Shown here in pieces: positions 40,693-44,354 of a DNA stretch of 64,000 nucleotides. The stretch's first letter is position 1; each line of letters starts with the position of its first letter. A program made the position numbers and the translations under genes. The stretch comes from Henriciella sp. Lineage in GTDB: Bacteria > Pseudomonadota > Alphaproteobacteria > Caulobacterales > Hyphomonadaceae. The notes beneath the pieces are model-generated. The model worked only from the letters and a program-made list of their open reading frames with translations, did not search any database and had not been told where the DNA came from. Location of the stretch: assembly GCA_017642885.1 (NCBI GenBank), contig JAEPOM010000003.1, positions 124,001-188,000 on the forward strand, in the 5' to 3' direction.

Positions 40693-42552
40693 ATGCGGGC
40701 GTTAAACTCATTCCTTCGACATACAGGCGGCAACACGCTGATGATGTTCGGTCTGTTCCTTGTTCCAGTGACAGCCGTCATCGGGTTCTCAATTGATGGG
40801 CAACGCGCCTTCAACAACAAGGCACAGCTGCAGAACTCACTCGATGCCGCCGTTCTCATGGCCGCGAAGGAATACTACGCGGATCCATCGCTAACGCAGG
40901 CTGAGCGTGAAGTTGCCGCGCGGCAAGCCGGCAATCGAATCTTCCAACGCAATCATCTCGAATTTGGGTTGGGCGATACTCAGCCCAGTATCGCCTTTGA
41001 ATTTGACGAAGTCGGTGGCACTGTCGATGCAACCGCAAGAAGTGTGATAAAGAACTTCTTTGGCGGGGTATTGAACCGCAACACAACAACCATCGGCGCC
41101 AACGCTCAGGCGGCCATTGGCGGCAATAAGCGCCTGGAAATCGCGCTGATCCTCGATAATTCGACGTCCATGTTCCGGTCAAATCGGATGAACCTGATGC
41201 GCGAAGCGGCGGTAAATTTCACCGATACATTGTTTGAACGCTACGGACATGAAGGCATCAAAGTTTCGGTCGTGCCATGGGCAACGACCGTGAACATAAT
41301 GTCTGAGCCAATTGCCGCGCCGAGCTCGATGCCTGCTGGCGGGACATTGCCGCCAGCATACGGCTCTCGAACGGTCCCAGCTGCGCCCGCCGTTCATCCT
41401 TGGCGGCATACGCAAAATCCTTTCACGGGCCAGGCCCTGACTCGGCAGAGCGATGCGGACAATCTTTTCGCGCCGACAACCTGGCGCGGCTGCGTACGCG
41501 CCGCTGCAGGCGAGCGAGAAGTCAGCTTGACCGGTACGGTGAAAACGCCGCTCACAGATGCCTTTCCTGGCCACAAATGGCCGCTGGCTATTGTTCCGCC
41601 CAAACTGGAACCGTATCGCTACAATCGCTCAAGCTGTTCATACAATTGCCGGGTCGTAGATTCCACACAATTGAGGGCAGATCCTTGGTGGTCAGGCGGC
41701 GCAGCCAATAATTACCAGCCAAAAGCCGTGCGCGCTGGTATCCGTCCTGATTATCCCGCTCAAGCGCAATACGATTATTATCACAGCAATGGCTGGACAG
41801 ACCCCAATGGCTATATCAAGACCTGCCTCGCGGACCCAAATGAGTTTGCGTACCTGAATGAAGGCGGCAGGGTCTGCGACTATCGCCCGACGGATAATGG
41901 CAGTTCCAATATCTTCCCGTGGGATCAGCAAAAAGCAATCAACGGGCCGAACATGAACTGTCCGTCGCCAATGCTTGCTGCGTCAGCCAATCGGGCGCAA
42001 GTGGTCAACAAGCTAAAGCAAATGTATCCAGCGCCGGGCGGCACGCACGCTGACATTGGCCTTATGTGGGGCCTACGGACGCTCTCGCCCCGCACCGATT
42101 GGACCGGCTTCTTCTCCTATCCTACCGATACCGAGCCGGCCGCGTGGGATGATCCGGAAGTTATCAAAATCGCCGTGCTGCTTACTGACGGCATTAATGT
42201 CGCGCCTGGCAACTTTGAAGGCTATTATGGCTGCACCAATCGGACCGAGCAGACATATGATGTCGGGTATCCGGAAGACCACGATGACAGCGTCGGGTGT
42301 TGGCGCCACCCCGACATTCAGCGACTGGACAAGACCGCGCTCGACAATCTGATGCTGGATTCCTGCGAGCAAATGAAATCGCAATACGGCGTTCAGCTCT
42401 ACACGATTTCGGTGGACATCAATGACTCCACCGCGATCTCCTATCTCAAACAGTGTGCGAGCTCGGAAGCGGATTTCTACAACATCTCATCGGGTGAAAT
42501 CGGGATTGCGTTCAACTCGCTGCTGACAACTCTGGTACGGATCAGCAAATAA
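40693..42552 (+). CDS. TadG-like VWA-domain protein (TadE/TadG family)
   Basis: A 619-residue protein. An N-terminal segment (residues about 10-33) is the hydrophobic TadE/TadG-type helix, followed by GQRAFNNKAQLQNSLDAAVL as in Tad pilus-assembly pseudopilins. A VWA domain begins near residue 148, with the metal-binding MIDAS motif D155-x-S157-x-S159 and a later VLLTDGIN. A long cysteine-containing insertion (about 230-430) lies inside the VWA domain. It probably faces the periplasm and helps adhesion or pilus assembly; no other tad genes are nearby. Confidence 0.87.
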   Translation: MRALNSFLRHTGGNTLMMFGLFLVPVTAVIGFSIDGQRAFNNKAQLQNSLDAAVLMAAKEYYADPSLTQAEREVAARQAGNRIFQRNHLEFGLGDTQPSIAFEFDEVGGTVDATARSVIKNFFGGVLNRNTTTIGANAQAAIGGNKRLEIALILDNSTSMFRSNRMNLMREAAVNFTDTLFERYGHEGIKVSVVPWATTVNIMSEPIAAPSSMPAGGTLPPAYGSRTVPAAPAVHPWRHTQNPFTGQALTRQSDADNLFAPTTWRGCVRAAAGEREVSLTGTVKTPLTDAFPGHKWPLAIVPPKLEPYRYNRSSCSYNCRVVDSTQLRADPWWSGGAANNYQPKAVRAGIRPDYPAQAQYDYYHSNGWTDPNGYIKTCLADPNEFAYLNEGGRVCDYRPTDNGSSNIFPWDQQKAINGPNMNCPSPMLAASANRAQVVNKLKQMYPAPGGTHADIGLMWGLRTLSPRTDWTGFFSYPTDTEPAAWDDPEVIKIAVLLTDGINVAPGNFEGYYGCTNRTEQTYDVGYPEDHDDSVGCWRHPDIQRLDKTALDNLMLDSCEQMKSQYGVQLYTISVDINDSTAISYLKQCASSEADFYNISSGEIGIAFNSLLTTLVRISK

Positions 42553-42586
42553 GAAAAAGGCCCGGCGCGATACGCAGCCAGGCCTT
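42551..42586 (-). terminator. Intrinsic terminator, minus strand (sRNA or LysR transcript)
   Basis: On the minus strand AAGGCCTGGC pairs with GCCGGGCCTT (one G-U), followed by TTTCTT. The plus strand has an A-C mismatch and no T tail, so it works only for minus-strand transcription. Confidence 0.75.
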
Positions 42587-42674
42587 GAAGTTTGGTTCCG
42601 TCTGGGGGAGGAAACACCCAATCGGAGGAATGATCGGGTTGTGTCCGGAACCTCAACACGGGGGGTATATGGGC
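42551..42674 (-). ncRNA. Predicted small RNA with CCUCC-exposing stem-loop
   Basis: Between the convergent tadG-like and LysR genes the minus strand holds a likely sRNA of about 124 nt. Parts: a candidate promoter (TTGCGG at 42708-42703, 16 nt, TACAAC at 42686-42681); an outer stem (42594-42600 with 42646-42652); an inner stem (about 42614-42623 with 42632-42642) with an 8-nt loop reading AUUCCUCC; an unpaired UUUCCUCCCCCAGA; and a terminator. In both the inner stem and the terminator the non-Watson-Crick pair is G-U on the minus strand but A-C on the plus strand, arguing for a minus-strand RNA. Unproved without expression data; it could also be a LysR 3' UTR. Confidence 0.5.
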
Positions 42675-42695
42675 TCTTTAGTTGTAATTGCAACA

Positions 42696-42720
42696 TGCAT
42701 GTCCGCAAAAGCGACATGCA
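42696..42720. promoter_or_regulatory. Perfect inverted repeat over the predicted sRNA promoter
   Basis: TGCATGTC (42696-42703) and GACATGCA (42713-42720) with 9 nt between. It straddles the predicted -35 of the small RNA, so it may be an operator; a hairpin at the 3' end of either convergent gene is the alternative. Confidence 0.45.
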
Positions 42721-42752
42721 ATTTTGCATACATTAAACAAAATTAATATTCG

Positions 42753-43655
42753 CTACCGCAAGGGTGAAGATCGGAACGCCTCGACTTGACCCGTCAGGAA
42801 ATCCCGAAACGCGCCAATTCGCTTCGATCGCTTCAGATCGCTGGGATAGATAAAATAGAGATCGAAGCTGGGGCCAGTAAAGTCTTCCAGCACGCGAACA
42901 AGCCGCGGTACGGCGCTGACCATGTAATCTGGCAAGTCCGCAATGCCGAGCCCTGCCTCAGCCGCGCGCAGCATCGCAGAGACATTGTTCACCGTCAGGG
43001 CCGCTTTTCGCGGGCCAGCATCGTCCCGCCCAACCCGCTCAGCAAAGCTCATAGCAGTGATCGGGCTATCCGCTGCGCCATAGGCAATGATGCGATGATT
43101 ATCCAAATCCTGCGGCGTACGGGGCATTCCGTGCTGTTTGATGTATTCCGGTGAGGCATAAAGGTTGGTCGCAACCGTCGCCAGCTTACGCTGTATGAGG
43201 TCGGCCTTGTCGGCTGCCCACAATCGAATGGCGCATTCAGCTTCCAGCTTCAGAAGATCATAGTGCTCGCCATCATCCAGGCGCAGGTCGATGCGCATTT
43301 CCGGATGCTGACTGACAAACTCGCCAAGGCGTGGCACGAGCCAGGTTGATCCGAAGGCAACGGGCGCGGTGACGATCAGCTCGCCCTGCGCGACGTTTTG
43401 TTGGTCTTTCAGGGCGGCACTCGCCCCCTGCGCAGCCGTTGCCATATCCACAGTCGATCGGTGCAGCGTGTGTCCAGCATCGGTCAGCACCAAGCCGCGA
43501 GCGTGGCGCTGAAACAGGGACACGCCCAACTGCTCTTCCAATGCCGCAATCTGACGAGAAACAGCCGATTGAGATATCCCAAGGCGCTCTCCTGCCGCCG
43601 TGAGACTACCGGCTTCTGCGGCCGCGTGAAAAGACTTCAGCTTATCCCAATCCAT
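42753..43655 (-). CDS. LysR-family transcriptional regulator
   Basis: A 300-residue LysR protein starting at 43655 (AAGGA upstream; an in-frame ATG at 43673 gives six more residues). The N-terminal winged HTH reads FHAAAEAGSLTAAGERLGISQSAVSRQIAALEEQLG, and the C-terminal two-lobed effector domain follows. It is typical of single-gene LysR regulators acting on distant targets; no divergent neighbour exists here. The effector is unknown. Confidence 0.94.
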   Translation of the reverse strand: MDWDKLKSFHAAAEAGSLTAAGERLGISQSAVSRQIAALEEQLGVSLFQRHARGLVLTDAGHTLHRSTVDMATAAQGASAALKDQQNVAQGELIVTAPVAFGSTWLVPRLGEFVSQHPEMRIDLRLDDGEHYDLLKLEAECAIRLWAADKADLIQRKLATVATNLYASPEYIKQHGMPRTPQDLDNHRIIAYGAADSPITAMSFAERVGRDDAGPRKAALTVNNVSAMLRAAEAGLGIADLPDYMVSAVPRLVRVLEDFTGPSFDLYFIYPSDLKRSKRIGAFRDFLTGQVEAFRSSPLR

Positions 43656-43742
43656 AACGCGCAGTCCTTCCACAAGACGGCCCCACGGCGCAAGCCCATG
43701 ACTTAAAAGAAATACTAATTTTCAACCGCCTGCCTGTTTTAC

Positions 43743-44354
43743 CTACTGGCTGATCCACAAAATGCGCGCCGTCCATTCGAGCGCGGCTCGATCGAATAAT
43801 TGACGGTTCGAATAGGTATCGATTTCCAACTGATCAGCGGAGATCGTACGAAGCGCGCCGATCAGAGCGGCGTGATCTTGAGGTTTAACGATCACCCTGT
43901 CTCCCGCTTGCAAATCAGTCCCGTAGGAAGCGATCAAGCGATCGCCGTTCGTGTAGACCGGTGAGAGTTCATCATCGCCAATCTCGACAGCGAAACATCG
44001 CTCGATATCGATCATGCAAGGTGGGGTGAATGACTGGACTGACTGAGCGTCTGCGCCGTGAGAACCGGGCGGCGATGACATGTTCTCTAGATCCGACTGT
44101 TGGATCAATGAAACCGCGACAGCATTCCGCCCCGAGACGAGCATTGCAAATGATTCAAAGTCCGCACCGACCGCCGTCAGGATGCGCGATATACTCTCTG
44201 TGGACGGCCAACGTGGCCGGCCATCTTTCGGTAAGCGCTTCGATTTGTTGAACGCGGTCGCGTCCAAGCCTGCCAGCTTCGCCAATCCGGATGTCGACAA
44301 TCCGTGATGCTTGGCCAGTAAATCTATTCCGCGCCAAATGTCCCCATGTTGCAT
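43743..44354 (-). CDS. HTH repressor with S24/LexA-like domain, catalytic Ser lost
   Basis: A 203-residue regulator: an N-terminal HTH (residues about 15-60, HGLSTSGLAKLAGLDATAFNKSKR) and a C-terminal S24-like domain (about 117-190). In S24 peptidases the motif is GDSM with catalytic Ser; here it reads IGDDELSP, so autocleavage is unlikely. The Lys-containing RVIVKPQDH segment is retained. A perfect palindrome at 44393-44409, 39 bp before its start, probably is its operator. It is divergent from the DUF952-pyrD pair. Confidence 0.85.
   Translation of the reverse strand: MQHGDIWRGIDLLAKHHGLSTSGLAKLAGLDATAFNKSKRLPKDGRPRWPSTESISRILTAVGADFESFAMLVSGRNAVAVSLIQQSDLENMSSPPGSHGADAQSVQSFTPPCMIDIERCFAVEIGDDELSPVYTNGDRLIASYGTDLQAGDRVIVKPQDHAALIGALRTISADQLEIDTYSNRQLFDRAALEWTARILWISQ

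Follow-up and report, generated by a model that had tools for sequence, protein, structure and literature searches.

A stretch of 64,000 nucleotides from a Henriciella sp. genome (GenBank assembly GCA_017642885.1, contig JAEPOM010000003.1, positions 124,001 to 188,000 of the forward strand), hereafter called the window, contains a predicted minus-strand small RNA (sRNA) that an initial annotation, made from the sequence alone, had proposed as a trans-acting regulator. The element sits between a LysR-type regulator gene, upstream of it on the same strand, and a convergent gene on its other flank (Table 1). It is almost certainly a genuine minus-strand small RNA gene, and sequence evidence supports the RNA, its structure and its linkage to the LysR gene.

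Table 1. Features of the sRNA locus (positions are those of the window; nt, nucleotides).
Feature	Position	Strand	Evidence or remark
Predicted sRNA, ~107 nt	42553..42659	minus	conservation and covariation; both ends predicted, the 5' end from the -10 spacing and the 3' end at the U-run
S1 5' arm GUGUU (partner 42641-42645)	42655..42659	minus	covariation
S1 3' arm GACAC	42641..42645	minus	covariation and members outside the alignment
S2 5' arm GGUUCCG (outer stem of the initial annotation, inside the S1 loop)	42646..42652	minus	covariation
S2 3' arm CGGAACC	42594..42600	minus	covariation
S3 inner hairpin ACCCGAUC-AUUCCUCC-GAUUGGGU	42616..42639	minus	folds and alignment; UCCUCC loop clade-specific
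S3 loop AUUCCUCC	42631-42624	minus	
Alpha-r8-like anti-Shine-Dalgarno core GUUUCCUCCCCC, C-rich	42604..42615	minus	alignments, alpha-r8 likeness
Rho-independent terminator	42552..42586	minus	folds and covariation; absent from the consensus scan output
-10 element CATATA	42666..42671	minus	CATAT(A/G) in 11/11 subgroup loci
-35 element TTGCAA, spacer 16	42688..42693	minus	TTG in 11/11 subgroup loci
Box ATGCAAAATTGCAT (ATGC-N6-GCAT), candidate LsrB/VtlR-type site	42716..42729	minus	centre near -64
LysR-type regulator, LsrB/VtlR group, candidate activator	42753..43673	minus	HTH_1 and LysR_substrate domains, PDB 9hh1 match
Convergent gene with Tad and VWA domains	40693-42552	plus	other flank of the sRNA

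The minus strand of positions 42675-42551 folds at -47.3 kcal/mol (z -4.38, equalled by none of 200 shuffles), compared to a z of -1.72 for the plus strand, which 12 of 200 shuffles equalled, in agreement with the strand chosen by the initial annotation. Similarly, the 107-nt RNA (42659-42553) reached -47.2 kcal/mol (z -4.35, 0/200 shuffles equal), and its minimum-energy fold holds the outer stem, the inner hairpin and the terminator that had been described. With the longer piece that starts at 42675, the outer stem appears only in the centroid, the leader being paired differently in the minimum-energy fold. The inner hairpin is present with its loop AUUCCUCC, and the terminator (about 42586-42552) is borne out by folds and covariation, though a simple consensus scan reported neither a promoter nor a terminator at the element. 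The C-rich stretch GUUUCCUCCCCC also exists as claimed; however, it is not simply single-stranded, because GGA/UCC pairing in the predicted folds would hide part of it.

Two helices define the 5' end of the RNA. S2 (GGUUCCG, 42652-42646, with CGGAACC, 42600-42594) corresponds to the outer stem of the initial annotation, while S1 (42659-42655 with 42645-42641) had been missed. Since the 5' arm of S2 lies within the S1 loop and the linkers are short (~2 and 0 nt), the layout has the geometry of an H-type pseudoknot. Covariation was scored on an alignment of 53 sequences (A2), composed of Henriciella loci found by BLAST and of loci found by a search pattern that fixed the S3 loop, the S3 3' arm and the core, S1 and S2 lying outside the pattern. 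S1, S2 and S3 together had 88.5% of cells paired (81.1% in shuffles), two-sided changes in 13 of 21 pairs and a covariation score of 0.242 (0.129 in shuffles). None of 500 shuffles reached the pairing, the two-sided pairs or the score, and 17 reached the pair types, a significance that is overstated because the rows of A2 are related. Six slid versions of the three helices were far lower (15 to 52% paired). Taken singly, S2 showed two-sided changes in 7 of 8 counted pairs (6 of the 7 pairs formed by the window) with 92.5% paired, its score being reached by 0/500 shuffles and its pair types by 61/500, and S1 showed such changes in 4 of 5 pairs with 84.4% paired, no shuffle out of 500 reaching its score or its cells paired. 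The letters of S1 change from GUGUU/GACAC in the window subgroup to AUGCC/GGCAU in Hyphomonas, AUGCG/CGCAU at loci L135 and L138, UAGCC/GGCUA at L111 and GCCG/CGGC at L140. S3 is less variable, and the search pattern had fixed part of it. The relatives thus show what the initial annotation had suggested looking for, stems that are conserved and carry compensatory changes.

Fourteen members outside A2 (L180-L183 and L185-L194) had not been chosen by the pattern, and S1 and S2 are present in 13 of them, in several with unrelated letters (e.g., UGCAUGA/UCAUGCA with GUCUC/GAGAC, or UGCGAG/CUCGCA with GUGCCUC/GAGGCAU). Among these 13, between 0 and 18 of 400 shuffles were as good (the worst being L180, with 18), and linkers of 0-2 and 0-1 nt are suited to a pseudoknot. 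A first pass with wider ranges had given wrong helices in five of the 13 (L180, L182, L185, L189 and L191); the ranges were narrowed after that pass to the place of S2 known from the alignment, which yielded 13/13. The remaining member, L183 (genome G027), lies at a contig end, has one base of the core changed and carries S2 without S1. It was omitted from the box count, the LysR linkage count and the outside-member helix search and read afterwards, giving 13 of 14. L198 (G075), a weak second match without the core, was omitted, and L184, L195, L196, L197 and L199 are repeats of A2 members.

Both predicted helices covary, and S1 and S2 probably make an H-type pseudoknot at the 5' end, in which the two would pair simultaneously. 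It could be argued that they alternate instead, S1 as a local hairpin and S2 as a long-range clamp, giving two states that differ in core exposure. In favour of such a switch, the S2 5' arm does lie inside the S1 loop, and in the nested fold of the 107-nt RNA S2 forms while another helix takes up part of the S1 arm. However, S1 and S2 share no bases and the linkers of the outside members have pseudoknot length, so that no choice between them is forced, and we consider alternation unlikely, if still a serious contender.

The element was found by BLAST in 24 of the 29 genomes of the genus, and an exact pattern of hairpin 3' arm and core returned 52 stretches, 46 of them in records of Hyphomonas, Henriciella or Hyphomonadaceae. 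A covariance model (R1) built from 53 sequences, which includes S2, S3 and the terminator but not S1, matched 84 of 105 Hyphomonadaceae genomes at E <= 0.001, including 28 of the 29 Henriciella genomes; the window site scored 106.6 bits, the window itself being among the model sequences. In an order-wide draw, R1 matched 57 of 299 genomes, 55 from the same family and two, weakly, from another, and within the family, genus g10 yielded a single weak match among 15 genomes. As judged by these searches, the sRNA is conserved in this marine bacterium and its relatives and is without an existing name; searches of the open-licence literature listed no title that deals with it in Henriciella or Hyphomonas.

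The core GUUUCCUCCC is invariant in the alignments, part of whose rows were chosen by a pattern containing it, and is kept in nearly all members (G027 has GGUUCCUCCC, with one base changed). The CCUCC of the S3 loop is lost in G025, g3 and G027 and reduced to CUCC or less in g7. Of the CCUCC anti-Shine-Dalgarno segments described initially, the C-rich core is thus kept, while the loop CCUCC, going by the alignments, is clade-specific. The core resembles that of the alpha-r8 sRNAs, UUUCCUCCCU, which is reported to be single-stranded and to follow a weak hairpin (PMC12559287). The window's UUUCCUCCCC has 9 of the 10 bases of UUUCCUCCCU, part of them paired in the predicted folds, and other Henriciella members carry UUUCCUCCCU exactly. 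Rfam gave no match at gathering scores within the window. Below gathering, the element scored 23.9 bits with suhB (RF00519; gathering 41; E 0.013), 21.1 with anti-hemB (49.5) and 20.2 with ar14 (58.8), besides others, and membership in the alpha-r14/CcsR group, to which the RNA had been likened, is unsupported. Among the eight Rfam matches at E <= 5 in 42300-43000, ar15 (RF02345) does not appear; the ar15 model gave no match in 115 genomes of the class, controls included, a search that is therefore uninformative on absence.

Elsewhere in the same genome, C20:32786-32860 matches alpha-r8 better, with 39.9 bits and thus just short of 41, and there are weaker matches too. By eye, a third alpha-r8-like candidate with hairpin, GUUUCCUCCC and terminator was seen at C9:11801-11871 on the minus strand (L258), and in 12 Henriciella genomes a canonical SuhB-type copy lies 9.7-13.3 kb from the window-type RNA. 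The window RNA might accordingly be a plain diverged duplicate of alpha-r8 (MmgR/SuhB/SisA) beside a LysR gene and controlled by some other factor. Its hairpin-GGGCG-UUUCCUCCC string and terminator are shared with that family, as the RF00519 score reflects, and the C20 copy and the weaker C9 candidate would be its siblings. Considering that the score is below gathering, that the clamp is not seen in C20-type copies and that the linkage to LysR and box is constant, we regard a plain duplicate as rather doubtful.

All 71 loci that have 500 nt or more of upstream sequence (some genomes being included twice, from two collections) carry a LysR gene there in the same orientation, with 135-171 nt separating the end of the LysR match from that of the core. 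Compared with solved structures, the window LysR matched 9hh1 with an E of 6.5e-76, the next being 1.5e-29; 9HH1 is Agrobacterium LsrB (PMC11975290). By this comparison the window LysR is LsrB-like, Agrobacterium LsrB/VtlR being by far its closest solved relative. A LysR match was present in 13 of 15 genomes searched, and in nine besides that of the window a single orthologue stands out clearly (45-77% identity and an E of 1e-73 or below; all other matches <= 35%). At L229, L231, L232 and L233, the open reading frame (ORF) upstream of the orthologue starts, by eye, like thioredoxin reductase, as for vtlR, and a Pyr_redox_2 domain was found in the two such ORFs tested. Behind the orthologue, a palindrome ATGCR-N5-YGCAT or close to it, a C-rich stretch and a terminator were seen by eye at L230, L231, L232 and L234; no such palindrome or C-rich stretch was seen by eye at L227 and L229. 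Rfam matches behind the orthologues were all below gathering: SorX at L231 (42.6; gathering 46.6), ar14 at L228 (34.5; 58.8) and suhB at L230 (26.7; 41). At L228 (G111, of another family), an RNA-like stretch with two CUCCUCCCC segments lies behind the LsrB-like gene. A convergent Dps-like gene, such as an oxidative-stress locus might contain, was seen by eye behind the sRNA in L097, L108, L111, L114, L119 and L132, and also in L228; the one tested (L114) has a Ferritin domain. In the window, the Tad-like gene takes this place.

VtlR/LsrB activates the neighbouring abcR1, which encodes an anti-Shine-Dalgarno sRNA (PMC7486931, PMC8844928). A strongly diverged AbcR (alpha-r15), whose place beside LsrB/VtlR was kept and whose sequence was not, would explain why the window RNA occupies the same place by an LsrB-like gene as abcR1 in the Rhizobiales (PMC7486931). 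This seems improbable, however, given the missing ar15 match in 42300-43000 and the alpha-r8 type of the core.

The initial annotation put the promoter and operator in the wrong place. Of 24 Henriciella loci, three have the exact pair TTGCGG/TACAAC (seven have TTGCGG and four TACAAC), and one has the perfect inverted repeat over the -35, TGCATGTC/GACATGCA. Better supported is the pair TTGCAA/CATATA: in 11 of 11 loci of the window subgroup, CATAT(A/G) stands 56-57 nt before the core and 16 nt behind TTG (at L013 and L018, an earlier CATAT was counted first and one at 56-57 is present too). Other subgroups have, by eye, different -10-like sequences at about that place. As for the operator, ATGC-N6-GCAT finds better support: among 69 unique upstream regions, 60 have it perfect (8/8 bases), eight with one mismatch and one with two. 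The 69 regions come from 92 loci related to one another, and the 60 therefore do not count as independent cases. The box lies 111-117 nt before the core in 64 of the 69, and at L192 the counted site lies elsewhere, probably by chance. Among random 140-nt windows, 17 of 3000 held a perfect box and 340 of 3000 one with one mismatch or better. The centre of the box is near -64 from the predicted start, the usual place of a LysR recognition site. Both the box and the RNA's own putative promoter are conserved. That the element is only a structured 3' untranslated region and terminator of the LysR mRNA (a refuting case named by the initial annotation), or an sRNA derived from that region without its own promoter, would fit its constant place just behind LysR on the same strand (71/71 loci) but is quite improbable, since a -35, a -10 and a box are conserved between LysR and the RNA, the predicted start is the first base of S1, and a terminator needs neither an anti-Shine-Dalgarno core nor a 5' knot.

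In the window genome, ATGCA-N4-TGCAT occurs at five places and the reversed control pattern at none. Another of these five, an ATGC-N6-GCAT box at C44:84439-84452, lies ~100 nt before an ORF of 63 aa (amino acids) without a Pfam or NCBIfam match (L148:1602-1790; L272-L278); of 41 relatives, seven have this ORF, five of them behind a perfect box, and it recalls the small gene atu1667, which is VtlR-activated in Agrobacterium (PMC7486931). PhaR/AniA, which represses MmgR in S. meliloti and whose motif contains YGCRNYGCR (PMC12542648), was rejected as the owner of the box, its motif being TGC-N3-GCA and the box TGC-N6-GCA. The box was also rejected as a rule for all alpha-r8 siblings, as it is perfect in 8 of 29 Henriciella C20-type best hits and in 0 of 20 in other genera. 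C20-type (SuhB) copies have it at a similar distance, with one mismatch in six more of the 29 Henriciella loci; the window genome's own C20-type copy has no box at that distance, only an N7 form further up. Hyphomonas SuhB-type loci (L205-L211, L213 and L216) have an inverted repeat GTGCC-N4-GGCAT upstream instead of the ATGC box.

Our preferred reading, to which we assign a probability of roughly 0.6, is that of a free-standing, pseudoknotted sRNA that is activated by LysR via the box and acts as an Hfq-type repressor blocking Shine-Dalgarno sequences. The adjacent regulator of the LsrB/VtlR group would activate the sRNA through the ATGC-N6-GCAT box near -64, and an RNA of ~107 nt would be transcribed from its own promoter. 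In the 5' H-type pseudoknot, the S1 loop would pair, as S2, with the segment behind the core, thereby clamping the hairpin and the alpha-r8-type core GUUUCCUCCC, and the terminator would close the RNA. Together with Hfq, the C-rich core would pair with the Shine-Dalgarno regions of mRNAs and block translation, as AbcR1 and SisA do. We take the sRNA to be an Hfq-type translational repressor because of the 9 of 10 bases that its core shares with alpha-r8. In Caulobacter, SisA probably represses many mRNAs through UUUCCUCCCU, with Hfq (PMC12559287), while MmgR acts in polyhydroxybutyrate (PHB) storage and SuhB in catabolite repression (PMC8401924, PMC6563040). An anti-Shine-Dalgarno repressor of Hfq type, with an alpha-r8-type core on a new scaffold, appears to be the best reading of the sRNA. 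That the RNA is transcribed, that LsrB activates it, that it depends on Hfq, how it acts and on which targets, and that S1 and S2 form jointly are inferences, those on expression, regulation and action being drawn by analogy. The initial proposal of a trans-acting anti-Shine-Dalgarno sRNA under a transcription factor is thus partly supported, though not in its placement of promoter and operator.

Several observations speak against the reading just given. The window box fits the proposed VtlR box, GCAT-N3-TG-N3-T (PMC7486931, PMC8844928), only in part, and the boxes after distant orthologues have N7 spacing. The trxB gene is not next to the window LysR, whose upstream gene (43743-44354) has no Pfam match, and no trxB was recognised when the ORF starts at 14 loci were inspected by eye. 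In the window LysR there is one cysteine, at the presumed place of C144, and an isoleucine at that of C273 (placed by alignment, with deduced numbering), the latter cysteine being described as needed for H2O2 resistance in Agrobacterium. Moreover, LsrB is called unique to Rhizobiales in PMC11975290; PMC7486931 reports VtlR/LsrB in many Alphaproteobacteria. With regard to the structure, GUU of the S1 arm forms, in the nested fold of the window RNA, a short helix with AAC outside S2, and a longest-helix script picked UUGAGGUU/AACUUCAA or another helix over S2 in 9 of 54 sequences (L009, L011, L013, L014, L015, L018, L020, L023 and L132), the window being among the nine with UUGAGGUU/AACUUCAA as its longest helix. 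RNAalifold, which is unable to draw pseudoknots, gave S2 and the terminator on the alignment, and neither S1 nor S3. The number of S1 pairs with two-sided changes was reached by 136 of 500 shuffles; 14 of 53 sequences lack the second S1 pair, S1 is just 3 bp (GCC/GGC) in a Henriciella subgroup, and it is absent in G027 and G028 (L022/G028 in A2), both of which have S2. Finally, perfect 10-nt complementarity occurs at 17 places in the genome (two in the control), two of which coincide with the sRNA genes and one with the C9 candidate. Among the 15 places outside the two sRNA genes, three lie within 15 nt before a frame of >100 aa (419, 129 and 121 aa), and one is a convincing target site, before a cytochrome P450 gene (419 aa), the only one of the three frames shown to be a member of a gene family.

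A broader and more tentative possibility, for which we would not claim even odds, is that the slot behind lsrB/vtlR is old in Alphaproteobacteria, such that the regulator and a palindromic ATGC..GCAT box stay while the scaffold of the anti-Shine-Dalgarno sRNA is exchanged: AbcR in Rhizobiales, SorX-like or alpha-r14-like RNAs in other lineages, and the pseudoknot RNA with the alpha-r8 core in Hyphomonadaceae. The sRNA would then be the exchangeable output module of one LysR regulator. If the preferred reading of a LysR-activated, pseudoknotted repressor is true, an alphaproteobacterial anti-Shine-Dalgarno base-pairing sRNA would use a conserved 5' pseudoknot as its scaffold, of which no earlier case was found among titles in the open-licence literature. 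Free-living marine bacteria would possess, with a different RNA, a counterpart to the LsrB-AbcR circuit of symbionts and pathogens, and a direct test of the exchange of sRNA core and scaffold under a fixed regulator would be possible.

Among known sRNAs, the alpha-r8 family (MmgR of S. meliloti, SuhB of Sphingopyxis granuli and SisA-D of Caulobacter; RF00519) likewise has a hairpin, the GUUUCCUCCC core and a Rho-independent terminator, the last of which is present in the window RNA according to folds and covariation, and it occurs here in multiple copies per genome, as in Caulobacter (PMC12559287). In contrast to alpha-r8, the window RNA adds a 5' clamp (S1 and S2) around hairpin and core, ends its core with CCCC rather than CCCU, scores below the RF00519 gathering threshold and is tied to LysR, the usual single copy being found next to an FGase gene (PMC12559287). 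The alpha-r14/CcsR group (RF02344) shares CU-rich anti-Shine-Dalgarno segments and a similar length, but the score of 20.2 bits is far from its gathering value of 58.8. SorX (RF02784) is represented by the SorX-like stretch behind the LsrB-like gene of the distant genome at L231 but not among the window matches at E <= 5. Like abcR1, the window RNA stands directly downstream of an LsrB-like gene, yet it has no match to AbcR (alpha-r15). The LsrB/VtlR-AbcR1 module of the Rhizobiales is arranged in a similar way: its LsrB-type gene is likewise followed by an anti-Shine-Dalgarno sRNA, which has a promoter of its own and a box further upstream (PMC7486931, PMC8844928); the window differs from it in its box, in a trxB that is not adjacent and in the residue at the C273 place, which is not cysteine.

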